Origin: Prevotella sp.
Lineage (GTDB): Bacteria; Bacteroidota; Bacteroidia; Bacteroidales; Bacteroidaceae
Length of the DNA stretch: 57,071 nucleotides
Direction: 5' to 3'
Assembly (NCBI GenBank): GCA_017619275.1
Contig: JAFZSR010000023.1
Span: forward strand, 1 to 57,071
Part shown: in pieces, positions 15,686 to 56,943 of the stretch
Position numbering within the stretch: position 1 is the stretch's first letter
Layout: the number at the start of each line of letters is the position of its first letter
Program-made: the position numbers and the translations under genes
The notes under the pieces: model-generated
Databases searched by the model: none
What the model was told of the DNA's origin: nothing
What the model saw: the letters and a program-made list of their open reading frames with translations, nothing else

Positions 15686-15874
15686 TTACCACCAGTCGTC
15701 CTCGTCGTCCCAGAAACCACCTTTGCGACTCATGGCATCTCCAGAAGCATTCTCATCCTGAAGCGTACCTGTGCCTTGGCCATTTCCGAAAGTCAAGCCA
15801 GCAGAAGCGGCAATCATGCCCTGCAGCTTCACCGTGTGCAGCTTCGTTTGTGGGATAATATATGTCTTTTTCAT
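15686..15874 (-). CDS. WDDED micropeptide 1
   Basis: Peptide of 62 aa directly after a large exported protein gene (37 bp). The N-terminus is MKKTYIIP. A hydrophobic stretch LQGMIAASAGL follows near residues 17-27, then a Gly/Asn/Thr-rich middle, and the C-terminus is GFWDDEDDWW. It shares the KK-Y-P start and the WDDED end with peptides at 30077-30244 and 55311-55475, in the same gene order. AGGAG stands 9 nt before the ATG. There is no classical signal peptidase site. The function is unknown; similar short reading frames are, from memory, common in Prevotella. It could be a secreted peptide, a chaperone-like partner or a peptide precursor. Confidence 0.85.
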   Translation of the reverse strand: MKKTYIIPQTKLHTVKLQGMIAASAGLTFGNGQGTGTLQDENASGDAMSRKGGFWDDEDDWW

Positions 15875-15883
15875 TGCTTGTAT

Positions 15884-15888
15884 CTCCT
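15884..15888 (-). promoter_or_regulatory. Strong Shine-Dalgarno of micropeptide 1
   Basis: AGGAG, 9 nt upstream of the ATG at 15874. Most genes in this window lack such a site, so it supports the start and implies strong translation. Confidence 0.75.
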
Positions 15889-15911
15889 ATTATTAAATTT
15901 GTTGGTATTTT

Positions 15912-18900
15912 TTACTTTATCACAAACTTCTTTCCGTTTACGATGTAGAGTCCTTTCGTAGGCTGTTGAACACTACGACCCTGCAGGTCGAAATAATGGA
16001 TGTTGCTCATTGTTGAAAGATTGATGCTCTCTATACCACTCTCATCACCGAAGCCAATAAACGAACGAACTTCAAGGGGAGCCTGCAGGTAAGCCTTGCC
16101 GGCAGCAACTTTCTGATTGTTTGCCTTGTAGAAGCCAATACCCTTGGAACCGTTGTTCAGGATATAGTTGTAGCCATTTTCAGTCTGGCTTGCCAGACTC
16201 GGAATCTCTACAAGAGTTCCTACCAAAGCGTTGTCCGTCACGGCATCGGCATCACCACTCAGCACTGGTACGTTGATGGCTGCTACAGCAGATCCCTCAC
16301 CCAAAGCATTACGCAGCAGAACACCCGTCTCTGCAGGAACTTTATGAATTTGTGTAAAGGTAATGTTCTGGCCATCCAAAGTTGCGATGTACACCTCAAT
16401 TGCATCAACTGCCGAGAAGTCAAGGGCCTTATCAGAACAGAAGGTAGCTAAACCTGCTTCACCGATACTTACTGCCACAGCATTGTCCAAATAGACGATG
16501 TCTTCAGCCACGCGAGGGAACAACTCATAAGTAGTGTTGTACACTACTGCGATGCCCTGAACATCAACAGCTTTCCCAGTCGTTACAGTATAGCCAACAT
16601 GGAAGTTGTCAAAAAGCTGAATGTCGGCGTCATCACCAACGTAATACTTATCATTACTCAGAGCTATCTCGGTGCTCTCTATCTTCACCAAGTCGCAGAG
16701 GTTGGCGGCTATGGCAGAAGTGGTTCCGTCAATCACCTTGGCCACCACGGCTTCGTTGCTGGTGGATGTCAGCACGCTAATGTCTGTAATGTTAGTTATC
16801 TCAGGCAGATTCTTGTAGGGGCTGTACTTGCCATAGATGGTTCCACTCAGGATGTCACCGGTTTTCAAAGTAGTGGTAAAGCTATTGCTGTTATAGAGGT
16901 CGATAGCACCGCTATTGTCTCGTACATATATATTCTTCTTGTCAGAGTCGATATATACCACTTGTGCGCCAGTCAGGTTAAGATAGCCAGTAGTATTGGC
17001 TGTCATAAAGTCCGTGATAGTAGTATAGACGGTGGGGAAGGTGTATGAAGCAGAAGCGATGTATGACAAATCATTGTCCTTAACAGCAATTGCCTTCAAC
17101 GTGCAACTCTGTGAAATGGTAATGGGGTTGCTGTATGCTAAACTTTCCGTAGTAGGATCATTTCCGTCAAGCGTGTAATGAATGGTTGCGCCTTCTGTCT
17201 CGCAGGTAATCGTTACGTTCTGACTTTCAGTATAAGTACCTTCTGCAAGCGAAATGACTGGAGTTGCCACTGCCTTCACCTCTCTGGGAGTAATTGTAAT
17301 AGTACTGATAACAGCATAAGAACTTCCTGCACTAATAGTAATGTTGGCCTCTGTACTTTCAACGTTCAATTCGTTTGTACCTGTTTTAGTGCCATCGCTT
17401 ACATTCACACTATTCGTTGTTGCAGTTACAGAAATCGTGAAACCAGCACCACTATTGATCTTGGGTAAAACAACCTTACCAGTATTTTTACTCAGCTGCA
17501 TGCTTGTGCCACTCTTCATTACGTCTGTAAGATTCCACCCAGAGTAGTTAACATTATCGCTGCCTTTGTAAGTAACATTAGTATATGACTGGTATCCGCT
17601 CCCTGATGAATTATATGAACCTGGCGAGAAAGTCAAAGGTTCTGTACCAAGGGTGATTTCTGTTTGAGCGGGAACAACAACTGTATAAGCAGCGGTCGCA
17701 ACAGAGCTCGCGTTTCCTCCTTCATCAATGGCAATTGCCTTAATGGTCAAGCTTTCATTAATGACAATAGGAGTTGTATACTCTGAACCATTTAGAGGAC
17801 TGTAAACAGGAGCGGTTCCGTCAGTTGTGTAAATAATCTTAAATGCATCAGCCTGAGTAATGGTCACAGCCTCTCCCATTACAATCTCTCCAGCTGCAGG
17901 TGAGAACGTTGGAGCGTTTGGAGCCTTAATACTAAAGGAAGCAGAAACCACAGCACTTGAAACTCCTTCTTTAATGGCAACAGCTTTTATTGTTACACTC
18001 TCTATTATGGCAATAGCAGAAGAATACTCAATACTATTGGCTGTCGGTTCTGAATTGTCAGTCGTATAGTAAATCTTAGCATCTTCTGTAGAAGTAGATA
18101 ATTCTACTGTTGTATTGTACACAACTGCTCCCCCATCTATGGTAAAGACGGGAGCTGCTGGTTTCTGAACGGTTGAAGGAATTTGCGTATAGTAACTTAC
18201 GACTACAGCTTGGCTTTTATAAATGTCAACTTGCGACAGACGAACACCAGTACTAGTTCCTTTTCCACTATTGGAAGTCACACGTAGCTTTCCAGTTCCT
18301 GAAAGTGGATTATTATCATTAGTGAACGAATGTTTTTTTGTAGCTGAGGTCCCTGAAACTTCTACATCCATCCATGTGTTTGTACCATCGCCAATTGTCA
18401 GACTATTATTATCAGCTCCACCAAACGTACCCCCATAAACATCTATCCTACTGATGATGCTCAAATCAAAGACGCCCGACTCAACGTATTCGTCCTTTGC
18501 TAACAGTGTGTAAGTGTTCTTGTCTGTATAGCTTGGGCCAAGATTCCAGTTTTTATCCTTATATTTCATCTGATGAACAAGCACATCTTCTGTCACTCCA
18601 TTCTCTTCTGAACGAGTATATACAGGATAAAGAGTCACATTTTGTAAAGGATTGTATTCTCCTGCAGGAATAATTGTAGGAGCCTCAGTTACCTCTTCAT
18701 TACCCAGTGAAGAAACTGACCATCCTGCGAAGGTATATGAACCAACAGCATCACGGGTTGGAAGAATTACACCTGCGCCCGGGGATGTTTCCGTTAGTTG
18801 CGTATTGTCATCGCCAAGAGTTACTGTATAAGCCGTTGTTGGTGCTGAATTTGATGAATAGACTATTTCAATCGAAGCAATTCTTACTTGAATATTACTA

Positions 18901-19334
18901 GTGTTGCCATTTGTAATTACACAAGAAGGGTTGTTAATCGCATAAATATCATTAGTCAATGATACTTCTGTATTACCAACTAACACTTTACCCTTATTAT
19001 AATCACTACTTGTATAGTTGATCTTAATAGAATTAATGGTTGTGCTCTCTTTTAATGTGGTTATTGTTAAAGTGTTGCTAGCTGTTGCATTATAATATAG
19101 TGCAATATAACCACTTTTGTTTAATCCTGGAAAATTTGAATTACCGCCTTTTGCACCTACTACTGACCATTCGGTGGCTGATAACCCCAGAGTGGCGGCA
19201 TCATTATTACCCGTCATATTGGTCGTAGTTGAACCTGAATACTGCAATGTGACTGTTTCAGCCCACGCACTTCCTGCCCCTGCGAACAACAGTCCGAGCA
19301 GGAACAGCATTTTCATTTGTAAATGTTTAACCAT
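15912..19334 (-). CDS. Large exported protein with chitobiase-like repeats and FDLQGR tail
   Basis: Exported protein of 1140 aa. The start at 19334 gives a signal peptide (MVKHLQMKMLFLLGLLFAGA...AWA). Next come a beta-sandwich region, a Flg_new/InlB-type piece near residue 190, and repeats of the CHB_HEX_C_1 type with the hallmark IYYTTDNSEPT, IIYTTDGTAP and IHYTLDGNDPTTES. An OB-fold-like segment (NIYVRDNSGAIDLY) and a module beginning AGLATFCSDKALDFS follow. The C-terminal tail is YFDLQGRSVQQPTKGLYIVN plus GKKFVIK. That tail resembles type IX secretion sorting domains. It is probably surface-displayed or secreted and may bind polymers; no catalytic domain is seen. Micropeptide 1 follows. 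Confidence 0.85.
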   Translation of the reverse strand: MVKHLQMKMLFLLGLLFAGAGSAWAETVTLQYSGSTTTNMTGNNDAATLGLSATEWSVVGAKGGNSNFPGLNKSGYIALYYNATASNTLTITTLKESTTINSIKINYTSSDYNKGKVLVGNTEVSLTNDIYAINNPSCVITNGNTSNIQVRIASIEIVYSSNSAPTTAYTVTLGDDNTQLTETSPGAGVILPTRDAVGSYTFAGWSVSSLGNEEVTEAPTIIPAGEYNPLQNVTLYPVYTRSEENGVTEDVLVHQMKYKDKNWNLGPSYTDKNTYTLLAKDEYVESGVFDLSIISRIDVYGGTFGGADNNSLTIGDGTNTWMDVEVSGTSATKKHSFTNDNNPLSGTGKLRVTSNSGKGTSTGVRLSQVDIYKSQAVVVSYYTQIPSTVQKPAAPVFTIDGGAVVYNTTVELSTSTEDAKIYYTTDNSEPTANSIEYSSAIAIIESVTIKAVAIKEGVSSAVVSASFSIKAPNAPTFSPAAGEIVMGEAVTITQADAFKIIYTTDGTAPVYSPLNGSEYTTPIVINESLTIKAIAIDEGGNASSVATAAYTVVVPAQTEITLGTEPLTFSPGSYNSSGSGYQSYTNVTYKGSDNVNYSGWNLTDVMKSGTSMQLSKNTGKVVLPKINSGAGFTISVTATTNSVNVSDGTKTGTNELNVESTEANITISAGSSYAVISTITITPREVKAVATPVISLAEGTYTESQNVTITCETEGATIHYTLDGNDPTTESLAYSNPITISQSCTLKAIAVKDNDLSYIASASYTFPTVYTTITDFMTANTTGYLNLTGAQVVYIDSDKKNIYVRDNSGAIDLYNSNSFTTTLKTGDILSGTIYGKYSPYKNLPEITNITDISVLTSTSNEAVVAKVIDGTTSAIAANLCDLVKIESTEIALSNDKYYVGDDADIQLFDNFHVGYTVTTGKAVDVQGIAVVYNTTYELFPRVAEDIVYLDNAVAVSIGEAGLATFCSDKALDFSAVDAIEVYIATLDGQNITFTQIHKVPAETGVLLRNALGEGSAVAAINVPVLSGDADAVTDNALVGTLVEIPSLASQTENGYNYILNNGSKGIGFYKANNQKVAAGKAYLQAPLEVRSFIGFGDESGIESINLSTMSNIHYFDLQGRSVQQPTKGLYIVNGKKFVIK

Positions 19335-26479: not shown

Positions 26480-29400
26480 ATGAAACAAATCAAACCTTAC
26501 TTCAAGAGAGCTTTGCTTTCTCTGCTCGCGCTCATGGCAACCGCCATGGGAACGAAAGCCGACGACATGACCACCACGCCGCTGACGCTGGAGGCCGTGG
26601 AAGCGGGGACTATCAACATCGTCAACCAAAATGAACTGACGCTCGCCTATACCAGCAGCGTCAACGGTGCACAGGCCTCTTCGGCCAACCCCATCACCAT
26701 CGAGGTGGCCAAGGGCGAGACGATTGCCTTGGAGTGCAACAACACGACCATGGGCACGAACTTCAACATCTCCACCACCAACGACGTCTATGTCTATGGC
26801 AATGCCTTGAGCCTAGTATTCGGCAGCGACTTTGCAGGAAAGACCGACTTGTCAGCATGCGAGACCGGCATTCTGGGCTTCCTCTTCTGCTTAGAGCCTG
26901 ACGGAAACATCTTGAACTCCACCATCCTGAACCATCCCACGAAGGACATCGTGCTGCCAGCCACCACGCTGGGCAATGGCTGCTATTTCTGGATGTTCTC
27001 GGGCTGCAACAACTTGACGCGCGGCCCGCAGCTGCCCGCCACTACGCTGGCCGAGGACTGCTATCACCGCATGTTTGAGTACACGGGGCTGGTGATGGCA
27101 CCTGAACTGCCCGCCGCCACCCTCTTCGGACAGGTCTACGGTGGCATGTTCGACCACTGCAAGAACCTCCGCTACGTGAAATGCCTTGCCACCGACATCG
27201 GCGAGAATGTAGGTATTTATAGTTCCGTAGCCACCTGGCTCAATGGTGTTGCTCCCTCAGGAACATTCATCAAGGCCGACGGCATGGACGACTGGACCGT
27301 TGGACCGCAGGACGAATGGGGAACCATCGATGGTATCCCTGCAGGCTGGACGGTGAAAAATGCCAGCGACTTCGACCCCTATGCCACGCCGCTCACCCTG
27401 GAGGCAGCGACAAGCGGCGACGTCACCTTTCAGATGCAGGTGGGCTATTATTCCTCTTCTTCAGCGAATGACATCGAGTATCGGAAGAACGACGGCGAAT
27501 GGACAACCTACACTTGGAACGAACCCATCGCAGTCAATGCTGGTGACAAAATCGCTTTCAGAGGAGACAATGCCACCTACAACGGCAATGGAGATTTCAG
27601 TAGTCGCATCACCAGCACGGCCGACGTGTATGTCTACGGCAATGTCATGAGCCTCGTCAAGTCACAAAACTTTGCCACATTAACCACTTTGGAAAAGCCT
27701 TGGACTTTTGGAGAATTATTCTGTGTCGGCTATGATGACATGCACCAGTCAATCACCAATACCACCATCAAGAACCATCCCACAAAAGATATCGTTCTAC
27801 CTGCAACAACGCTCACCAACTATTGTTACTATTCCATGTTCGATGGTTGTGGGGGTATCACGCGTGCCCCGGAATTGCCAGCCAAGAAAATGACGGTGGC
27901 TTGCTATGCCGACATGTTCAGGGGAACAGGCCTGACCAAAGCCCCTGCACTGCCTGCGACAGAATTTGACGACTATTCTTTCGACCCAGAAACATGGGAG
28001 GAGTTTGGCAGTATCGACTGTTATATGGAGATGTTCGCCAATTGCAAGAGTCTTGTCGAAGCTCCAGCTCTGCCTGCCACCACTTTGGTGCACGGCGTCT
28101 ATCAGCTCATGTTCTCTGGCTGCACCAATCTGAAGACAGCCCCCGACCTGCCAGCCTCCAAGGTGGCTGAGGTGGCATACTACCGCATGTTCTATGGCTG
28201 CTCGAAGCTGAACTACGTGAAGTGTCTGGCAACCGACATCACTGAAGAGATGGCTGTTGAGGAATGGCTGGATGGCGTGTCTACGACAGGAACATTCGTG
28301 AAGTCGGCCGACATGGACGCTTGGCCCACAGGAGCCAACGGCATCCCCGAGGGCTGGACAGTGGAGGAAGAAAGCGGCAACGCAGCTGACGCCGGGGAGC
28401 CATTGACCTTTGTGGCCGTCGAAGCCGGGACCATCACGGTGAAATACGAATACTACGGCGATGCCCCCTCAGGAAACATCAACACCATCCAGTACAAACT
28501 GAACAACGACAGTTGGACATATGTGACATGGGATGAAGACATCGCCTTGGCCGCCAACGACGTCATCAGCTTCCGTGGCGACAATACCAGCTGCTACGAC
28601 ACGGAGAACTGGGAACACTTCTACTTCGTCTGCTCCAACGACTGCTACGTCTATGGCAATGTGATGAGTCTGCTTCACTCTACGACTTTTGCCACAGAAA
28701 CCACGTTGACCGACGAGTATTGCTTCAGCGATTTGTTCTGCAATCAGTGGGAAGAGAACACCACCATCAAGAACCATCCCACCAAGGACATCGTGCTGCC
28801 AGCAACGACACTCACCGACTACTGCTACAATTCGATGTTCAACGGCTGCGCCGGACTGACACGCGCCCCAGAGCTTCCCGCAACGATTATGACTGCGTAT
28901 TGCTATAACGACATGTTCAACGGATGCAAGTCGCTGGCTGAAGCCCCCGCGCTGCCCGCCACTACACTGGCCGAGGGCTGCTACACCTTCATGTTCAACG
29001 GATGCTCGTCGCTGGCAACGGCACCAGCGTTGCCCGCCACCGCACTGGCAAGCATGTGCTACGACGGCATCTTCATGGACTGCACCAACCTGACAACCGC
29101 GCCCGAACTGCCAGCCACTACCCTCGTCGACGGCTGCTACTCCGAGATGTTCATGGGCTGCACCAGTCTGACAACGGCTCCCGAGCTTCCTGCCCAAACC
29201 CTGGAGGAGATGTGCTATAACTACATGTTCAACGGCTGCACCAATCTGAACTACGTGAAGTGCCTCGCCACCGACATCTCGGCCGACAATTGCACTTACG
29301 GCTGGCTCACCGACGTGGCCGCCACGGGCACCTTCGTCAAGGCTGCTGACACCGACTGGAGTGGGAAAGTGCCTACGACCGACGGTTGGGGCGACACCCA

Positions 29401-30064
29401 AGTCAACGGCATCCCCGAAGGCTGGACGGTTGTCGCCGAATCGGATCCAGGCACCTACGCCTTCACCGTTCCCGCCTCGGGCTTAGGCACCTTCAGCGCC
29501 GACGAGGCCGTCGCAGTCCCCGCAGGTCTCACCGCCTATTACTGCACCACCTTCGATGCCGACGCCAGCACCATCACCATCAAGGCTATTGAGGGCAACG
29601 TGATTCCCGCCGCCACCGGTGTGCTGCTGAGCGGACAGGCCGGGCAGAGCTTCACCCTGGAGACTGCAGGCGAAGCCGCCGAGCCCATCACCGACAACAG
29701 CCTCGTGGCCGTCACCACCGCCACGCATGTGCCAGCCACCAGCGGCGACTACACCAACTTCATGCTCACGGGCGGACGTTTCGTGAAAATACAGGACGCC
29801 GACTCCAACGTGAAGATGCCCGCCAATAAAGCCTACCTGCAGATTCCAACGGCCAGCATTGTCAGCGTAGCACGCCCCATCACCCTGATTTGGGACGAGA
29901 CGACCACCGCCATCGCCGACGTTAAACGCTCAACGTCCAATGTTCAACGTTCAACGTTCAACGTTCAACGTTCCTTCGACTTGCAGGGTCGCCACGTCAA
30001 CGCGCAACGTTTGCAGAAGGGGCTTTATATTGTGTACGGAAAGAAGGTTTATATTAACAAATAA
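26480..30064 (+). CDS. Giant exported surface protein with GCYxxMF repeats and FDLQGR-type tail
   Basis: Exported protein of 1194 aa with a signal peptide (MKQIKPYFKRALLSLLALMA). Three modules of 200-340 residues follow, each opening PLTLEA / PLTFVA and a VYVYGN(A/V)(L/M)SLV strand. Each then has short repeats of the type LPATTL...CYxxMFxGCxxL..APELPA and closes with YVKCLATDI...GIPEGWTV. This layout is common in Bacteroides and Prevotella BspA-like surface proteins. A module starting SGLGTFSADEAVAVPAGL precedes the tail. The linker STSNVQRSTFNVQRSTFNVQ is made of heptamer DNA repeats. The tail is SFDLQGRHVNAQRLQKGLYI followed by VYGKKVYINK. Adhesion or ligand binding is inferred. Micropeptide 2 begins 12 bp after the stop. 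Confidence 0.88.
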   Translation: MKQIKPYFKRALLSLLALMATAMGTKADDMTTTPLTLEAVEAGTINIVNQNELTLAYTSSVNGAQASSANPITIEVAKGETIALECNNTTMGTNFNISTTNDVYVYGNALSLVFGSDFAGKTDLSACETGILGFLFCLEPDGNILNSTILNHPTKDIVLPATTLGNGCYFWMFSGCNNLTRGPQLPATTLAEDCYHRMFEYTGLVMAPELPAATLFGQVYGGMFDHCKNLRYVKCLATDIGENVGIYSSVATWLNGVAPSGTFIKADGMDDWTVGPQDEWGTIDGIPAGWTVKNASDFDPYATPLTLEAATSGDVTFQMQVGYYSSSSANDIEYRKNDGEWTTYTWNEPIAVNAGDKIAFRGDNATYNGNGDFSSRITSTADVYVYGNVMSLVKSQNFATLTTLEKPWTFGELFCVGYDDMHQSITNTTIKNHPTKDIVLPATTLTNYCYYSMFDGCGGITRAPELPAKKMTVACYADMFRGTGLTKAPALPATEFDDYSFDPETWEEFGSIDCYMEMFANCKSLVEAPALPATTLVHGVYQLMFSGCTNLKTAPDLPASKVAEVAYYRMFYGCSKLNYVKCLATDITEEMAVEEWLDGVSTTGTFVKSADMDAWPTGANGIPEGWTVEEESGNAADAGEPLTFVAVEAGTITVKYEYYGDAPSGNINTIQYKLNNDSWTYVTWDEDIALAANDVISFRGDNTSCYDTENWEHFYFVCSNDCYVYGNVMSLLHSTTFATETTLTDEYCFSDLFCNQWEENTTIKNHPTKDIVLPATTLTDYCYNSMFNGCAGLTRAPELPATIMTAYCYNDMFNGCKSLAEAPALPATTLAEGCYTFMFNGCSSLATAPALPATALASMCYDGIFMDCTNLTTAPELPATTLVDGCYSEMFMGCTSLTTAPELPAQTLEEMCYNYMFNGCTNLNYVKCLATDISADNCTYGWLTDVAATGTFVKAADTDWSGKVPTTDGWGDTQVNGIPEGWTVVAESDPGTYAFTVPASGLGTFSADEAVAVPAGLTAYYCTTFDADASTITIKAIEGNVIPAATGVLLSGQAGQSFTLETAGEAAEPITDNSLVAVTTATHVPATSGDYTNFMLTGGRFVKIQDADSNVKMPANKAYLQIPTASIVSVARPITLIWDETTTAIADVKRSTSNVQRSTFNVQRSFDLQGRHVNAQRLQKGLYIVYGKKVYINK
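29921..29973. repeat. 7-bp tandem repeats coding the tail linker
   Basis: Units of the CAACGTT type run in tandem and encode the SNVQRSTFNVQ-like linker between the protein body and its C-terminal tail. The same unit is found at 45441-45612, and a decayed form at about 55572-55605 lies at the same point of another tail protein. Confidence 0.8.
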
Positions 30065-30069
30065 GGAGG
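30063..30069 (+). promoter_or_regulatory. Strong Shine-Dalgarno of micropeptide 2
   Basis: AAGGAGG, overlapping the last bases of the upstream stop codon and 7 nt before the ATG at 30077. It suggests coupled, efficient translation. Confidence 0.8.
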
Positions 30070-30076
30070 AACAGCC

Positions 30077-30244
30077 ATGACTAAGAAAAAATACGAAGCA
30101 CCTCTCTGCGAGATAATAGCCGAAGAGGGTCAACTGATGCAGGATGCCGTCAGCGTCGACACCAGTGCCTGGGGCGACCAGTCACACGCCGAATCGCGTC
30201 GTTACAACGGCCAGCTGTGGGACGATGAGGACTACGAATGGTAG
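30077..30244 (+). CDS. WDDED micropeptide 2
   Basis: Peptide of 55 aa, 12 bp after the 1194-aa exported protein gene. It begins MTKKKYEAPLCEII, has GQLMQDAVSVDTSAWG in the middle and ends NGQLWDDEDYEW. It is the plus-strand member of a family of three in this window (others at 15686-15874 and 55311-55475), all following a tail-bearing exported protein. There is no signal peptide. The conserved ends and variable middle suggest a leader-plus-core or partner-binding design, but no modifying enzyme is nearby. Confidence 0.85.
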   Translation: MTKKKYEAPLCEIIAEEGQLMQDAVSVDTSAWGDQSHAESRRYNGQLWDDEDYEW

Positions 30245-30356: not shown

Positions 30357-33300
30357 ATGAAACGCAATCATCTACTAACAACGCTTCTCCTGTTGCTCGC
30401 AGCGCCCATAGTAGCAATGGCGCAGTACTGGGAGAGTGGCACCAGCAAGACTGGCTCGGTGTCGAAGAACGTACACGACGTGTGGTACACCATCAGCCTG
30501 CCCGAGGACGGCGAGGTGAGCCTTACGGTGGAACCACTGATGAACATCAGCCGCGAACGAGTGACCATCTATGCCATCGTGGATGGCGAGAATGTGCAGC
30601 GCGACTTCGCCTGGGTTGACGGCTCGAACCGCAACCTCACCTGCCCCAATCTAAAACCGGGCATCTACAAGGTGAAGTTTACTGCCGACCCTCGAGATAG
30701 CGATTACAGCGGCACCTACCGCATCACCTACGTCTTCACTGCCCCGACAGTGAAGACCGACCCCACGCCCAACGACACGTGGCAAGACTGCCCCCTGCTG
30801 GAGGACGGCGTGACGCTGGGCGGCCATTTAGGCTATGCCTACAGCCAGTCAGACAAAGATGTGCAGGACTGGTTCAAGATTGAAGTGCCCAAAGACGGCA
30901 AGGTGCAGTTTGAATTCAGAAGCAATTCCACCCTCACCGTTGGCAACACCTCTCTCCATGCACTCAACGCTGAAGGCACCGGCCTGATGCAGCGCGGCAG
31001 CAAGTGGCTCGACTACCGCGACTCTACGTTGGTGTTCGAGGTGCCCAACTGCCAGGCTGGCATCTACTATCTCTCCTTGCCGCTCAGGTACGGCTATGGC
31101 ATCTATCACCTCACCTACCGCTTCGTACCGCCCGTGACCGACAGCGACCCCGAGCTGAACGACACGTGGAATACGGCAACGCCGCTGACCGATGGCCTAA
31201 CGCAGCACGCCCACTTAGGCTATGCCTACAACAACAACACCGACATGCAGGACTGGTACGTGATAGAGGTGCTCGAGGACGGCAAGCTGACCTTTGAGGC
31301 CCGAAGTGCCACAACGCTCACCCTTGGCAATGCCACACTCAATGTGCTCAATGCCGATGAGACCGATGTGCAACAGCGCGCCAGTAAGTGGTTCGACTAT
31401 CCTGGCCAAACCGTCATCTTCGAAATCCCCAACGTGTCGAAGGGCACCTATTATTTCTGCATGCCACTGCGCTATAACTATGGCCCCTACGACCTGACCT
31501 ACTATTTCACTGGCCACAGTGAGGAGGCTGACCCCGAGCCCAACAACGACTGGCAGATGGCAACACTGCTGCAGGCTGGCCCCTCCACTACCGGACAGCT
31601 GGGCTACGACTACAACCATAGTCAGGACGTGCAGGACTGGTATACGTTTGTTGTGCCCGAGGAGGGTGTCATCACCCTGACCATCTGCAGCGAGCAAACG
31701 CTGACCATCGGCAACGCAACTATCAACACGCTCAAAGCCGACGGTTCTGGCTTGACACAACGCACCAGCAAGTGGCTCGACAATCCGGGCGACACGCTTA
31801 CCTTCACGCTGAACAATGCAGCCCCCGGCAACTACTACCTCTGCCTACCCTTGCGCTACGGCTACGGCACCTATTCGATGCAATACACCTTCACCCCGTG
31901 CGCCATGACCAACGATGAGCCTGGCAATGACACATGGGACACCGCCACCTTCTTTGAGATGGGCACTACAATGGATGCCCGTTTAGGCTATGACTACAGC
32001 AGCTCAAACGACGTGCAGGACTGGTTCCGACTCAATGTGCCCGAGGAGGGAATCATCAAGCTCACCATCTGCAGTGAGAAGACGCTCACCATCGGTAATG
32101 CATACATCTACTCGCTCAAGGCTGACGGCTCAGGCCTGACAAACCGCGCCAGCAAGTGGCTCGACAATCCAGGCGACACGCTCATCTTCACCTTGAACAA
32201 TGTCGCCCCTGGCAACTACTATCTCTGCATGCCGCTGCGCTATAACTATGGCGGCTACCGCATGACCTACGAATTCATCCCCTGCGCCTTGGCCAACGAT
32301 GGTGTCGACAACGACTCGTGGGAAACGGCAACGGTCTTAGAGCGTGAAACCACCAAGGAAGGACGCTTGGGCTACGACTACAGCAACTCCAACGACGTGC
32401 AAGACTGGTTCGTACTCAATGTTCCTGAGGAGGGAAGCATCAACCTCACCATCTGCAGCGAGCGGACGCTCACAATCGGCAATGCATATATCTACTCGCT
32501 CAAGGCTGACGGCTCAGGGCTGACAAACCGCGCCAGCAAGTGGCTCGACTATCCGGGCGACACGCTAACCTTCACACTGAACAACGCCGCCCCCGGCGAC
32601 TACTATCTCTGTCTGCCGCTGCGCTATAACTATGGCGGCTACCGCGTGACCTACAACTTCACGCCCTGCAGCATTGCCAACGACATTGCCGGCAACGACA
32701 CGAAGGATTACGCCACCATCATTGAGAACGGCACCATCACACAGGGCCGCCTTGGCTACGACTACAGCAACTCCTTTGACAATCAAGACTGGTATCAGTT
32801 CGACATGCAGGCCGACGGCAGCGCCAGCTTCATCATCCAGTCTGAGAAGACGCTCACACTGGGCAACGCATCCATCTACGCCCTCAATGCCGACTACACA
32901 GGCGTGGTGAACCGTGTCAGCAAGTGGCTCGACTATCCCGACTCCGCTCTCGTCTTCAAGTGCGACGACCTCGCCGCCGGCACCTACTATCTCTACTTGC
33001 CTCATCGCGGCGGCTACGGCGGCTACACCGTGAAGAGCACCTTCACCAAGAACCCGTTCTACCAAGGCCGTTTGGGCAACACCAGCTTTGACAGCCGCAT
33101 CGCACTCGAGGAGGGCGTGAGCGTGCAGGGAACGTTGGGCTACAGCTATCGCGGCAACGATGCTGACAAGGAAGCATGGTTCGACCTGGGCCTGATGCAC
33201 GGAAGGCAAATCGACGTGACGGTAAATGTGGAGAGCAGCCACTCGCTGTCGATTGGCGTCACCGCACTGTATAAATACAAGGGCAACAAAGACGATGGCA

Positions 33301-35084
33301 CCCCCATCCTCGAGAGGGTGAAAGACCTCCGACTGGAGCGCAGCTCGGGCACGATTTCCTACCTCGACAAGAACACTGAGGACAGCCACTACATCTTCTA
33401 TCTGCCCCGCTACAGCGGCTACGGCGGCTATGCCGTCACCTTCGGCAATCCTATCCACGAGGGCGAGGTCAACGTCAGCAGCGACATCGCCGTGATGACT
33501 GGCGGCCGCAACACCGTTCGCAAGGGCGTGCCCTGCGACAACCCCATCACCATCACCAACACCTCGGCACAGAAGACGGGCAAGTTCCTCGTCAGCATCA
33601 GCACCACCGACAACATCGACATCATTGGATTCCGCATGCCCAGTTTCAGAGGCTCGCAATATCTGCCCGTCGACAGCGTCACCGTACTTGATGGCGCCAC
33701 CTGCCAGCACACCGTTGTGTTCCTCGTGCCCAGCCTCGACCCGTGGGAGAGCTACACCTTCACCATGGTCAGCGAAGGCAAGGGCGACATCTCCTACAGC
33801 CGCGAGTACACGGAGTTCTACAGCGGCAAGAATAAAGTCGTTGTCAATTCCAGCACCTTCGCCGTGGTGACCATCCTCGGCAATGTGGAAGGTGCCGACA
33901 AGCACATCAACGTGAGCGACTATGTGGTGCACCGCCTCGGCGATGTCTACGAGCTTACCGGCGAGCAGCGGCTGAAAGTGTCGCAGCTGATGGACCAGCT
34001 CAACGACGAGAAGCAGCAGACGGGCGTGGCTGCCTACAGCGTACTCTCGCTGCTGAAGAGAGCCTCCGAACTGTGCGGCATGGACCTCATCGATGCCACC
34101 TGCCCCCTCATCAGCCTCATTCGCCAGCACGTCTTCGAATGGATCTACCAGATCGACTATAACTACGACGATGAGTTCCTGGACATCCTCGACGGCAAGG
34201 CTGCCATCACCGATGTCGTCGCCTCGTGGGATCCCAACGAGATGGTGGGTCCTGCCGGCGTGGGCGAGAAGCACTACATCGGCGAGACGCAGACGGTGAA
34301 CTACCGCATCCTGTTCGAGAACAAGGCTGAGGCCGGTGCCGCCGCCTACCGCGTGCGCATCAGCGACGAACTCGACGAGAACGTCTTCGACGTCAGCACC
34401 GTCCGCTTCGGCGAGACCAGCCACGACGGCGTGGGCTACAACTGGGTGACGAAGCGCGAGGGCAACAAGCTCAGCTGGGACATCCAGGGCATTGAGCTGC
34501 CACCCAACGTGAACGCCCCTGAGGGCGAGGGCTACGTCAGCTTCAGCGTCGACCTGAAGCCCAGACTGAAGGATGGCACCGTGGTCAGCAACAAGGCCAC
34601 CATCATCTTCGACAAGAACCTGCCCATCGAGACCAACGTCTACACCAACACGCTCGACCTCACACCGCCCGTGACGGTGATGGCATCGGCCGACTACGAC
34701 CCGGCTGCCAACACCATCCGTGTGAAGTGCCAGTCGGAGGATGCCGCCTCAGGCGTGCAGAGCTATCTGCTCTTCGCCTCGCGCAACGGAGCCGACTATG
34801 ACTACTACGGACAAGCATTCACTGGCACGATGGACTATGCCGTGGAGAACTATGTCGACGGCGACAACTACTCGTTCTACGTGCTGGCCATCGACAACGT
34901 GGGCAACGTGGAGAACGTCACTCCGCAGGGCGTACAGGCTGTCACCGGCATCACCGGCGTGCGCTTCGACCACGATGCCACGCTGCGCATCTACACCACC
35001 GACGGCCGCTACGTTGGCGACAACCCGACTCGTCTGCCGAAGGGCGTGTATGTCATCGGTGGCAAGAAGTTCGTGGTGAAGTAA
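30357..35084 (+). CDS. Giant exported protein with eight 125-aa repeats and C-terminal sorting-like tail
   Basis: Exported protein of 1575 aa. The signal peptide is MKRNHLLTTLLLLLAAPIVA. About eight repeats of about 127 residues start near residues 30, 132, 260, 391, 517, 644, 771 and 901. Each has a D(T/S)W opening, LGYxYxxxxDxQDW(F/Y) and (S/A)SKWLDxPGDTL (or close variants), like pre-peptidase C-terminal beta-sandwiches. Repeats 4-6 are nearly identical over long stretches. Next come a beta domain (about 1040-1180), a helical region (1190-1290) and a WDPNEMVGP module as in other large Bacteroidetes proteins (1295-1440). An Ig-like domain leads to the tail YTTDGRYVGDNPTRLPKGVY-VIGGKKFVVK. 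No micropeptide follows. The role is unknown, probably surface binding. Confidence 0.85.
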   Translation: MKRNHLLTTLLLLLAAPIVAMAQYWESGTSKTGSVSKNVHDVWYTISLPEDGEVSLTVEPLMNISRERVTIYAIVDGENVQRDFAWVDGSNRNLTCPNLKPGIYKVKFTADPRDSDYSGTYRITYVFTAPTVKTDPTPNDTWQDCPLLEDGVTLGGHLGYAYSQSDKDVQDWFKIEVPKDGKVQFEFRSNSTLTVGNTSLHALNAEGTGLMQRGSKWLDYRDSTLVFEVPNCQAGIYYLSLPLRYGYGIYHLTYRFVPPVTDSDPELNDTWNTATPLTDGLTQHAHLGYAYNNNTDMQDWYVIEVLEDGKLTFEARSATTLTLGNATLNVLNADETDVQQRASKWFDYPGQTVIFEIPNVSKGTYYFCMPLRYNYGPYDLTYYFTGHSEEADPEPNNDWQMATLLQAGPSTTGQLGYDYNHSQDVQDWYTFVVPEEGVITLTICSEQTLTIGNATINTLKADGSGLTQRTSKWLDNPGDTLTFTLNNAAPGNYYLCLPLRYGYGTYSMQYTFTPCAMTNDEPGNDTWDTATFFEMGTTMDARLGYDYSSSNDVQDWFRLNVPEEGIIKLTICSEKTLTIGNAYIYSLKADGSGLTNRASKWLDNPGDTLIFTLNNVAPGNYYLCMPLRYNYGGYRMTYEFIPCALANDGVDNDSWETATVLERETTKEGRLGYDYSNSNDVQDWFVLNVPEEGSINLTICSERTLTIGNAYIYSLKADGSGLTNRASKWLDYPGDTLTFTLNNAAPGDYYLCLPLRYNYGGYRVTYNFTPCSIANDIAGNDTKDYATIIENGTITQGRLGYDYSNSFDNQDWYQFDMQADGSASFIIQSEKTLTLGNASIYALNADYTGVVNRVSKWLDYPDSALVFKCDDLAAGTYYLYLPHRGGYGGYTVKSTFTKNPFYQGRLGNTSFDSRIALEEGVSVQGTLGYSYRGNDADKEAWFDLGLMHGRQIDVTVNVESSHSLSIGVTALYKYKGNKDDGTPILERVKDLRLERSSGTISYLDKNTEDSHYIFYLPRYSGYGGYAVTFGNPIHEGEVNVSSDIAVMTGGRNTVRKGVPCDNPITITNTSAQKTGKFLVSISTTDNIDIIGFRMPSFRGSQYLPVDSVTVLDGATCQHTVVFLVPSLDPWESYTFTMVSEGKGDISYSREYTEFYSGKNKVVVNSSTFAVVTILGNVEGADKHINVSDYVVHRLGDVYELTGEQRLKVSQLMDQLNDEKQQTGVAAYSVLSLLKRASELCGMDLIDATCPLISLIRQHVFEWIYQIDYNYDDEFLDILDGKAAITDVVASWDPNEMVGPAGVGEKHYIGETQTVNYRILFENKAEAGAAAYRVRISDELDENVFDVSTVRFGETSHDGVGYNWVTKREGNKLSWDIQGIELPPNVNAPEGEGYVSFSVDLKPRLKDGTVVSNKATIIFDKNLPIETNVYTNTLDLTPPVTVMASADYDPAANTIRVKCQSEDAASGVQSYLLFASRNGADYDYYGQAFTGTMDYAVENYVDGDNYSFYVLAIDNVGNVENVTPQGVQAVTGITGVRFDHDATLRIYTTDGRYVGDNPTRLPKGVYVIGGKKFVVK

Positions 35085-35330: not shown

Positions 35331-35462
35331 AGCGGCCTCACCTCCAACCTATCTCCAAGGGGCGATGGCAGCATATACACCCTCAATGGCGTGAAGCTCG
35401 ACAAGCAGCCTACACGCAAGGGCCTGTATATCCAAAATGGACACAAGGTCGTGATTAAGTGA
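35331..35462 (+). pseudogene. Orphan C-terminal tail of an exported protein
   Basis: An open frame that follows an in-frame TAA and has no start codon. It reads GDGSIYTLNGVKLDKQPTRK then GLYIQNGHKVVIK and a stop, clearly the tail of the FDLQGR/GLYIVNGKK type. The body of the protein is missing; copy B of the dispersed repeat sits immediately upstream. It probably marks a deletion or a recombination scar at this surface-protein locus. Confidence 0.8.
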
Positions 35463-43138: not shown

Positions 43139-43146
43139 AACTATTT

Positions 43147-43183
43147 GTCATTTCTCATTACTCATTTCTCATTTTTCATTAAT
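43147..43183. repeat. 7-bp tandem repeats (TTTCTCA type)
   Basis: Units TTTCTCA, TTACTCA, TTTCTCA and TTTTTCA in tandem just before the promoter of the next gene. The TCTCA word is shared with repeats inside the GH35 and RecD-like genes. Confidence 0.7.
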
Positions 43184-45440: not shown

Positions 45441-45612
45441 ATGAACGTTGAACGTTGAACATTGAACGTTGAACATTGAGAATTGAACGAAAAAAATTGG
45501 CTGCGCACCGTTTAGATGATGCGCAGCCAATTATCTTTTAAAAACGTTCAACGTTCAATGTTCAACGTTCAATGTTCATCGTTCAACGTCCAACGTTCAT
45601 CGTTCAACGTTC
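45441..45612. repeat. 7-bp tandem arrays, opposed, around a terminator
   Basis: TGAACGT/TGAACAT units run from 45441 to 45488 right after the rny stop. The reverse complement (ACGTTCA/ATGTTCA units) runs from 45544 to 45612 right up to the stop of the next, convergent gene. A hairpin terminator sits in the middle. The layout is the same as in the 9-bp arrays. Confidence 0.88.
45495..45532. terminator. Bidirectional terminator between rny and DUF1573 gene
   Basis: A perfect 13-bp stem AATTGGCTGCGCA / TGCGCAGCCAATT, 12-nt loop, with A-run before and T-rich stretch after. Confidence 0.88.
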
Positions 45613-55310: not shown

Positions 55311-55475
55311 TTAGTAGTCATCGTCCTCGTCATCCCAACTGGAGTTGTGGTCGCGCGAGAGCAGGTCATCCACTTGGTTCGTGGTGCCTGCTAAACCTAA
55401 GGTGGTATTAGCAATCATGCTTTGCATTCTCACCTTGACGATGATGGTGTTAGGTTGCTTATAAGTCTTTTTCAT
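55311..55475 (-). CDS. WDDED micropeptide 3
   Basis: Peptide of 54 aa, 19 bp after the exported protein gene at 55495. It begins MKKTYKQPNTIIVKVRMQSM, then IANTTLGLAG, and ends NSSWDDEDDDY. It shares MKKTY-P, the M-I-A word and WDDED with micropeptide 1, and WDDED with micropeptide 2. A full AGGAGG lies 8 nt before the ATG. Function unknown; third copy of the exported protein plus micropeptide unit. Confidence 0.85.
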   Translation of the reverse strand: MKKTYKQPNTIIVKVRMQSMIANTTLGLAGTTNQVDDLLSRDHNSSWDDEDDDY

Positions 55476-55483
55476 ATTGTTGT

Positions 55484-55489
55484 CCTCCT
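55484..55489 (-). promoter_or_regulatory. Strong Shine-Dalgarno of micropeptide 3
   Basis: AGGAGG, 8 nt before the ATG at 55475. It matches the strong sites of the other two micropeptides. Confidence 0.8.
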
Positions 55490-55494
55490 ATTCA

Positions 55495-56943
55495 TTATTT
55501 GATGATTGCTTTCTTTCCGTTCACGATGTATAGTCCCTTGGTGGGTTGGTTGACACTTCGTCCCTGCAGGTCGAAGAAACGTTGAGCGTTGGACATTGCA
55601 CGTTGCACAGTATCACTGATGCCCTGGGTGCCGGTCTCTTCGAGGGCAAACGTACGAGTTCCATCTCCTTGCAGTTCAGAGCTGAGCAACAGCACCACAC
55701 GGCCTTTCAGTTCACTCATCGCCCCCGTCCACTGCTTGAAGCAGGCACCTGAATCTTTCTTGGCCAGCACGTATACAACCTCGTCATCTTCGTATTCCTC
55801 GCCATTGTAAATGCTGAGCAAGTTATCATCGTTGTCGTCATAATAATCCGCGATAGTAATTGTCTTTGTGCCCTTACCCTTCAGCAGCACGGGCGTATAG
55901 GCTTCCACAGCATTTACTTCCTCAAGGAGGACGGTTCCTGCATCCTTGTTCACCTTAGTCACAATCCATGCATCACCCTCCTCAAACTGTGCGTCAAATT
56001 TGGGGATATAGGTTGCCCATCCGTGGCTTGATACTGTCACTGTCAGCTTATCACCAAAGTACAGATACGTGGCAGGTGTAAAGCGCGTATAGCCTTCGGA
56101 ACCTCCTTCGGGGACAACCCATTCTTGGGTGCCATAAACACCACCATTCTCATCCCAAATCGGTTCGGCGTACATTATGTCAGATTCCAGCAACTCGTAT
56201 CTTTTCCACTCTTTTGTTTCCTTATCTTCATAGCCAAGACCATACATGGAATAGGGATTAAAACCGTTGAGTGCCTCCTCGCCGCCATGCAACTTCAACG
56301 ACATACCCTTGCCAAAAGTCATGTTACAATTGGCAGCATTTCCATAATCATAAGGATCCCAGCCTTGGAAGCGGATACCATAGTTGGTGCCGGAGATGTC
56401 GCCGGCAAAATCCTCCATGTTGATTGACGACTCGGCGAGATGGATGCCACTTTCCACACCTTCAACGGCTGGAATGGTAAGCGAAGCGCCGTCCTCACCA
56501 ATGATGCTGATAATGCCGCCGCCCCAAGCCTCAGACTGCAATGTACCCATGGAGATGGCGGCATTGCCGTTGGGTGCCGTGATTGTATTTTCTCCGTGCA
56601 GTTCGATGACGAAGCGGTCGTGGCTGTTCACTTCGATAGCAGGGCCATTTTCGCTCGTGAGGGTGGCGTTGTTGAGAATCAGCACGGGGTAGCGCCTGGA
56701 GCGTGTCGGAGTAACACTGGGAGTGTCGTCGTCATCTTCAGCGGCTCTTGGCATAAGTCGCCTACTACCCTCTGGACTGTCGCCACCTTCATCATTTTCA
56801 TTAACTTCCTCATCTTCACGCCATTCGAAGCCGATGGTGTGTTCATCGTCCAAATAGCCTTCACTCTCTGCTTGAATGGATAGGCCACCTATGCAGATAT
56901 CGGTGTTCACGATGCCACTTGGTACAAACTTAAGGGTCTTCAC
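55495..56943 (-). CDS. Exported-type protein with beta-helix region and FDLQGR tail, 5' end uncertain
   Basis: Frame of 482 aa starting at a GTG (56943) with no signal peptide, so the true start is probably missing or frameshifted. An acidic stretch (REDEEVNENDEGGD) precedes a DUF4353-like region (YPVLILNNATLTSENGPAIE, FVIELHGENTITAPNGNAAI). A module with SSHGWATYIPKFDAQF then parallels the ATF module of the other tail proteins. The tail is FFDLQGRSVNQPTKGLYIVN followed by GKKAIIK. Heptamer-derived DNA codes the VQRAMSNAQR linker before the tail. Micropeptide 3 follows. An in-frame TGA lies at 57001-57003, and no credible ATG start lies between it and 56943. Confidence 0.7.
   Translation of the reverse strand: MKTLKFVPSGIVNTDICIGGLSIQAESEGYLDDEHTIGFEWREDEEVNENDEGGDSPEGSRRLMPRAAEDDDDTPSVTPTRSRRYPVLILNNATLTSENGPAIEVNSHDRFVIELHGENTITAPNGNAAISMGTLQSEAWGGGIISIIGEDGASLTIPAVEGVESGIHLAESSINMEDFAGDISGTNYGIRFQGWDPYDYGNAANCNMTFGKGMSLKLHGGEEALNGFNPYSMYGLGYEDKETKEWKRYELLESDIMYAEPIWDENGGVYGTQEWVVPEGGSEGYTRFTPATYLYFGDKLTVTVSSHGWATYIPKFDAQFEEGDAWIVTKVNKDAGTVLLEEVNAVEAYTPVLLKGKGTKTITIADYYDDNDDNLLSIYNGEEYEDDEVVYVLAKKDSGACFKQWTGAMSELKGRVVLLLSSELQGDGTRTFALEETGTQGISDTVQRAMSNAQRFFDLQGRSVNQPTKGLYIVNGKKAIIK

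Follow-up and report, generated by a model that had tools for sequence, protein, structure and literature searches.

Micropeptide genes paired with surface-protein genes in a Prevotella genome: a candidate accessory of outer-surface export

Gene pairs in the window

The 57,071-nt stretch of Prevotella sp. DNA analysed here (GCA_017619275.1, contig JAFZSR010000023.1; hereafter the window), one contig of a 3.59-Mb genome that is 85% complete, carries three gene pairs in which a gene for a large protein ending in a penultimate module and a short tail is closely followed by a gene for a micropeptide from a family of about 50–70 aa. The pairing recurs in the rest of the genome and in relatives and depends on the module, and the peptides have two conserved ends, carry no signal peptide and are under purifying selection. 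As a tentative explanation, we favour a two-gene export cassette whose peptide would act as a cytosolic bivalent accessory of outer-surface export; this function, like peptide binding, the site of action and any effect on export, is what we infer from these observations. The pairs and a fourth tail-bearing gene are arranged as follows.

15686..15874, minus strand: peptide 1, 62 aa, MKKTYIIP...SRKGGFWDDEDDWW, from frame reading, peptide alignment and the genome profile search
15884..15888, minus strand: AGGAG, Shine-Dalgarno-like, 5' of peptide 1
15912..19334, minus strand: large secreted protein 1 with CHB_HEX_C and Fn3_assoc repeats; ATG 19409 opens the frame, signal-peptide Met at 19334
15915..15992, minus strand: tail of protein 1, FDLQGRSVQQPTKGLYIVNGKKFVIK
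16050..16487, minus strand: penultimate all-beta module of protein 1, limits approximate, from the module model and a predicted structure (191-aa stretch)
26480..30064, plus strand: large secreted protein 2, BspA-type leucine-rich repeat (LRR) protein with signal peptide
29480..29917, plus strand: module of protein 2 (GLGTF...), limits approximate
29919..29973, plus strand: (ACGTTCA)n 7-bp tandem array of 7.9 copies, separating module and tail of protein 2
29975..30061, plus strand: tail of protein 2, FDLQGRHVNAQRLQKGLYIVYGKKVYINK
30064..30069, plus strand: AGGAGG, Shine-Dalgarno-like, overlapping the protein 2 stop
30077..30244, plus strand: peptide 2, 55 aa, MTKKKYEAP...LWDDEDYEW
55311..55475, minus strand: peptide 3, 54 aa, MKKTYKQP...SWDDEDDDY
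55484..55489, minus strand: AGGAGG, Shine-Dalgarno-like, 5' of peptide 3
55495..56943, minus strand: large protein 3, in a frame open to 57000 and with an uncertain GTG start
55495..56097, minus strand: module (WATY...) and tail of protein 3
30357..35084, plus strand: fourth tail-bearing protein, PPC repeats and DUF7619, no peptide behind

The gaps between cargo and peptide are 37 nt (pair 1), 12 nt (pair 2) and 19 nt (pair 3), and proteins 1 and 2 have an N-terminal Sec signal peptide by reading and hydropathy. Aligned, the three peptides share M1, K2, K3, Y5, P8, W-D-D-E-D and three further columns. A sequence-only reading of this DNA had placed three pairs in the same gene order, and all are present, including the Met of protein 1 at 19334; sequence comparison also bears out its account of the tails, of the module (here ATF/GTF/ATY) and of the peptides with their KK.Y..P...WDDED pattern. 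Its statement that the large proteins are unrelated stands for their bodies, which are diverse, but not for the module, which is common to all. In pair 2 only a TAA and four codons separate the cargo from the peptide, which continues in the cargo's frame (30062–30079); in pairs 1 and 3 the two frames differ.

Pairing within the genome and in relatives

The pattern is far beyond chance: TGGGAYGAYGARGAY occurs six times in the 3.59 Mb, always inside a family peptide, versus once in a backward-read control. A profile built from the three window peptides and run against the genome at E ≤ 10 returned 15 matches, all of which were read in context. Thirteen begin 3–58 nt downstream of a gene encoding the FDLQGR..KGLYIVNGKK tail, including every one of the five weak matches (E 0.3–9.8), while the remaining two lie 352 nt behind a tail gene and 370 nt behind a gene that is AraC-like by eye. 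At one own-genome locus (L010, C71), a peptide stands behind a tail gene and also directly 5' of a lipoprotein-type gene.

With these 15 peptides as the model, 49 of 60 genus genomes, its own included, contain a match at E ≤ 0.01. Loci were fetched for the best matches of 30 genomes and most of the listed matches of four, a non-random sample in which a tail gene ends at most 150 nt upstream of the peptide in 56 of 69 rows, three duplicated loci among them; matches in frames longer than 150 aa (L036 and L116, which are one place, L093 and L105) were not counted. Once the own-genome locus L022 and the duplicates L023, L024 and L026 are omitted, 52 of 65 loci lie behind a tail gene, 49 behind the module and 47 behind both. 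At the level of the order, seven of 295 surveyed genomes, the own genome included, have a match at E ≤ 0.001, and three of these belong to one genus of another family (g113), with 22, 5 and 7 matches. There, 10 of 15 loci sit about 15–57 nt behind a gene with such a tail and an eleventh 109 nt behind (by eye); of the rest, three follow nothing relevant and L149 (G352) stands a few nucleotides behind a gene with an apparent dockerin-repeat end, again by eye.

The association also emerges from a search blind to the peptide, in which the query run against named genomes was the C-terminal 191 aa of protein 1, comprising module and tail. Six relatives were found, their named records being Prevotella, Prevotellaceae or Bacteroidaceae metagenome-assembled genomes, and a peptide follows the gene in five of them, at gaps of 37, 151, 37, 44 and 19 nt. 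The start rule did not catch the fifth partner, at L237, which was identified by eye, and the peptides of L235 and L237 have no acidic Trp end. The sequence-only reading had named a lack of enrichment as its refutation, and the outcome favours its idea: peptides are enriched behind tail genes in the own genome (13 of 15), in the genus (52 of 65), in one genus of a second family (10 of 15, by eye) and in the peptide-blind set (5 of 6). Its pattern of constant partner and variable body is supported.

A second kind of C-terminal end (e.g. NGKIAIYKNGVKFNVAGQQMK) is also found 5' of peptides, at L024, L097, L134 and L139, the last two being order-survey loci of other genera; at two L097 places the module is present as well.

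Module, tail and cargo body

A model of the tail, run on the own genome at E ≤ 1 with 150 of 172 candidates scored, gave 138 matches, and 90 distinct tail genes were read from the stretches around the best-scoring matches and from the window. The start-motif rule yielded 24 peptides, of which four (starting MKRFLPP, LSKNFGG, VSRRFCP and VLVKGQD) were discarded by eye, so that 20 of the 90 tail genes have a peptide within 160 nt, the 352-nt case being scored as unpaired. A module model covering the 180 residues preceding the tail, with the paired set scored leave-one-out, reached at least 30 bits in 17 of the 20 paired tail genes versus 9 of the 70 unpaired ones (Fisher p 2.6e-9); the partner of the peptide is therefore module plus tail, and the tail alone was rejected as a candidate. 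The earlier suggestion that the peptide serves the shared tail or module accordingly gains support as an association, in the narrower form that it is the module, more than the tail by itself, with which the peptide goes.

Cargo bodies differ widely. Pfam scanning of the 20 paired cargos identified LRR proteins, endonuclease I, RGL11 rhamnogalacturonan lyase, alpha-amylase, C10 peptidase and adhesin-like proteins, with no Pfam match at E ≤ 1e-4 in 11 of the 20. Twenty unpaired cargos were also drawn, of which 19 of the 70 were scanned after an L212 stretch was left out, and these included glycoside hydrolases, endonuclease I, LRR proteins and a CotH protein. Given such diverse functions, the peptide is not tied to what the cargo does.

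The C-terminal 191 aa of protein 1, modelled from nine sequences, gave a best of five predictions with a mean predicted local distance difference test score (pLDDT) of 83 and a predicted template modelling score (pTM) of 0.74; the other four reached pLDDT 81.5, 79.7, 65.0 and 55.8. The best model is predicted to be all-beta to about residue 146, followed by a low-confidence linker and tail strands at 179–183 and 186–190. The fold has no convincing match to solved structures, an absence that is no evidence of a new fold. A joined module–tail–peptide frame was set aside and left out of folding; its alignment appeared to lay peptides on the tail.

Peptide anatomy, selection and translation

Among 80 peptides examined, 79 fit the start rule M-K-K-x-Y-x-x-P, after which a hydrophobic stretch runs to about residue 24, followed by S/A/G-R, a variable middle and W-D-D-E near the end. 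Mean net charge is +2.2 in the N-terminal 9 aa and −4.3 in the C-terminal 12, and a Trp lies within the last 14 aa in 64 of the 80, versus 20.5 expected after shuffling. The WDDED end described earlier is found in all three window peptides but is not universal, being replaced elsewhere by WDDDE, WDEDD or WGDDE and missing from a few members. AlphaFold2 applied to the peptide with eight sequences gave pLDDT 62 and pTM 0.22, and the middle is predicted to be disordered between two conserved ends. Hydropathy stays below 2.0 in 77 of the 80, versus 2.31–2.97 for eight control signal peptides; by this measure the family shows neither a signal peptide nor a lipobox, as Sec- or Lol-secreted peptides would, and the suggestion of an exported signal in the peptide itself finds no direct support.

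The ratio of nonsynonymous to synonymous substitution rates is 0.05–0.33 in 10 of 13 close peptide pairs, which share members and are hence non-independent; of the other three, one is saturated and two have ratios above 1 based on hardly any synonymous changes. The peptides are under purifying selection, and it is therefore the peptide product, not the RNA alone, that is selected, a pattern that also supports their translation. No Pfam family matched over cut-off for 59 peptides, including the three in the window, and no NCBIfam family for the window peptides and seven others; peptides 1 and 2 match no family, and peptide 3 gave two sub-cut-off matches only.

Ribosomes of Bacteroidota generally do not recognise Shine-Dalgarno sites (PMC6847099, PMC9976891), and in Bacteroidia exceptionally strong sites are characteristic of rpsU (PMC9976891). 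Such a site nevertheless precedes all three window peptides. More broadly, AGGAG, GGAGG or GAGGA is found at −22 to −4 in 23 of 85 peptide genes, versus 5 of 254 first ATGs of long open reading frames (ORFs), 1 of 132 operon-internal candidates and 3.2% of random positions.

Relation to type IX secretion

The YDLQGR..KGLYIVNGKK tail looks like a shortened signal of the type IX secretion system (T9SS). SprA was found in 57 of the 60 genus genomes, the own genome included, and the latter also has two Peptidase_C25 genes, identified to the level of this family, to which PorU and the gingipains belong. Across 301 family genomes, 200 have peptide and SprA, 33 SprA alone, 19 the peptide alone and 49 neither (odds ratio 15.6, p 2.7e-19, a statistic that ignores relatedness). 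At least five peptide matches are found in 103 of 233 SprA-positive versus 3 of 68 SprA-negative genomes, and the three exceptions come from genera with SprA in other members. The T9SS genes of the own genome and the SprA correlation both support the export setting that had been suggested for the pairs. TIGR04183 exceeds its cut-off at 10 other own-genome places, and its sub-cut-off matches overlap five short tails (C40, C76, C42, C46 and C62).

In common with T9SS type A cargo (PF18962/TIGR04183), the window proteins combine a Sec signal peptide, a large multidomain cargo and YDLxGR and G-x-Y-I end motifs in a genome with SprA and Peptidase_C25. They differ in that the tail is about 26 aa long, falls below the family models and, by eye against canonical ends of the same genome, has no stretch between the two motifs; an all-beta module often precedes it and a micropeptide often follows. 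PorP and SprF are outer-membrane proteins. For type B cargo of the T9SS, a dedicated PorP/SprF accessory gene is usually clustered with the cargo (PMC10202324), and the pairs resemble this arrangement in having an accessory gene beside a secreted cargo. The accessory here differs in being a 50–70-aa peptide with no signal peptide, and the large window proteins have no match to PF13585. T9SS shuttle proteins, which are reported to engage effector substrates after translocation (PMC12618676), are likewise accessories that handle T9SS cargo; the micropeptide has no signal peptide to take it past translocation. An accessory gene beside a cargo is therefore familiar, whereas a micropeptide accessory would be new to the open-licence papers searched, which contain no description of such cargo–micropeptide pairs.

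Small ORFs in SprA-negative relatives

Thirteen of the 19 peptide-only genomes were searched (all except G362, G481, G571, G603, G607 and G615), giving 35 matches, 30 of them with loci; five of these had no start motif, leaving 25. At E 1e-6 to 1e-2 these matches are weak, and they fall chiefly in the N-terminal half, the small ORFs sharing the K-Y-P start with quite different remainders. In 15 of the 25 (L129, L253, L255, L256, L259, L261, L262, L264, L266, L267, L270, L274, L276, L277 and L279), the small ORF lies close to a lipobox-bearing start, between 20 nt of overlap with it and 37 nt ahead of it, as against 7.6% of random positions, 1 of 15 own-genome peptides and 1 of 27 genus loci; five pattern-based picks that differ from the matched peptide (L263, L265, L268, L275 and L281) were scored as misses among the 25. 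By eye, L258, L263 and L265 also lie 5' of lipoprotein genes, and some of the lipoprotein-type genes are fimbrillin-like. A Trp was present in the last 14 aa of 11 of 12 hand-picked peptides from these genomes. These comparisons suggest a wider peptide family with links to outer-surface proteins. Several of the searched genomes are incomplete, and SprA occurs in other members of some of their genera (g1, g2 and g190); a missing SprA match therefore need not mean that a given genome lacks a T9SS.

One genus member, G010, is 99% complete and has no SprA match; it yielded four weak peptide matches, three with loci, and both readable loci (L050/L254 and L278) are not behind tail genes.

Proposed role and rival explanations

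In the export explanation that we tentatively favour, the cargo would be Sec-exported and probably T9SS-secreted, its sorting end consisting of the all-beta module, a linker and the short YDLQGR..KGLYIVNGKK tail. The micropeptide would be made alongside its cargo in the cytosol. One of its ends would contact the sorting module as it emerges, or else a general export factor, while the other end would contact a further component of export or of the ribosome, and the cargo would in this way arrive at Sec, and later at the T9SS, in a suitable state. Surface lipoproteins of SprA-negative relatives may be served likewise by the small ORFs that have this start and a Trp end and stand in front of the lipoprotein gene. 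A broader and more doubtful proposal is that disordered Bacteroidales micropeptides with a K-Y-x-x-P start and an acidic Trp end are a general cytosolic accessory for outer-surface proteins, encoded behind module-plus-tail T9SS cargo in Prevotella-type lineages and before surface-type lipoproteins in SprA-negative ones; such an export escort would be new to the open-licence literature searched.

Several results weigh against this explanation. Eleven of the 60 genus genomes have no match to the 15-peptide model at E ≤ 0.01, yet all eleven have SprA, and none of the nine order-survey loci from genera other than g113 and the own genus lies behind an FDLQGR-type tail gene. Since 70 of the 90 tail genes read have no peptide within 160 nt, the peptide is not generally needed for the export of tail proteins. 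The window proteins match neither TIGR04183 nor PF18962, and the sub-cut-off overlaps with the five short tails weigh little, because 13 of 14 control genomes also match TIGR04183 at E ≤ 1, one of them over cut-off. The position of the peptide gene, 3' of cargo but 5' of lipoprotein genes, fits poorly with a simple co-translational model. Co-variation of peptide and module is not convincing either: in Mantel tests their similarities gave r 0.17 and p 0.04 in the own genome and no significance in G059 and G050, body and module correlated almost equally well over all 63 pairs (0.31 versus 0.34), and in G059 the body rather than the module reached p 0.03. These mixed and mostly unconvincing results argue that any contact would be generic rather than cargo-specific.

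The main rival, which we regard as unlikely, treats the peptide as the exported precursor of a signal or of a product akin to ribosomally synthesized and post-translationally modified peptides (RiPPs): the segment from the K-Y-P start to [ML][IL][AC]xS would serve as leader and the remainder as a core to be cleaved, possibly modified, and exported, and the neighbouring surface protein would display, sense or help deliver that core. A conserved start with a variable remainder, up to 22 matches per genome, and the diverging remainders in SprA-negative genomes speak for this, as does a hydrophobic pair with a Ser within three residues, near residues 16–28, in 61 of the 80 peptides. Graspetide-type precursors (PMC8939145) are similarly small and multi-copy, with a conserved N-terminal block and an acidic end. 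The micropeptides, however, are most variable in the middle and conserved again at the C-terminal end, their neighbours are surface-protein genes for diverse enzymes and adhesins, and a double-glycine exporter motif was not seen by eye. It is also rather improbable that the pairing reflects only a gene-end cassette, in which module, tail and peptide gene shuffle jointly by recombination between the 3' ends of surface genes while the peptide's cellular role is unrelated. Variable bodies with constant ends would follow from such shuffling, and near-identical peptides do occur at several loci of one genome (L082/L023, L083 and L085, all in G059), but the association holds across the genus, in one genus of a second family and in the peptide-blind search, and two-ended peptides under purifying selection point to a linked function.

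Translation of the peptide could instead report ribosome state or control message stability of surface-protein genes. The enrichment of Shine-Dalgarno-like sites, rare in this phylum, in 23 of 85 peptide genes versus the two gene controls would suit a regulatory small ORF of this kind; we nevertheless consider it improbable, as 62 of the 85 have no such site, selection at the amino-acid level indicates a product, and the gene stands 3' of cargo yet 5' of lipoprotein genes. Least plausible, and rejected as a candidate, is a toxin–immunity or inhibitor pair in which the peptide shields the producer from the secreted protein: the small gene does lie directly 3' of a large secreted-protein gene, and some cargos are nucleases or proteases, but one peptide family accompanies unrelated bodies, LRR proteins and polysaccharide enzymes included, whereas immunity proteins should vary with the toxin.

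Were the export explanation true, a partner gene behind 20 of 90 tail genes would mean that surface export has parts beyond those now known, in bacteria of the Prevotella type that are prominent in guts and rumens, and the peptide family would account for part of the unannotated small-protein pool.

Tandem arrays and a lone tail match

Three further 7-bp tandem arrays lie in the window (43143–43180, 45442–45489 and 45543–45612) besides the one at 29919–29973, and three of the four are of the ACGTTCA type. At least three tandem 7-mers occur in the last 65 codons of 29 of 90 own-genome tail genes, versus 3 of 88 in a control stretch. Since a 7-bp unit does not make up whole codons, gain or loss of a single unit would put the sorting tail out of frame, and the tail may thus be phase-variable. 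Behind the fourth tail gene, a lone tail match (E 2.5e-10) at 35367–35459 lies in a 43-aa frame and is perhaps the remnant of a lost gene end.

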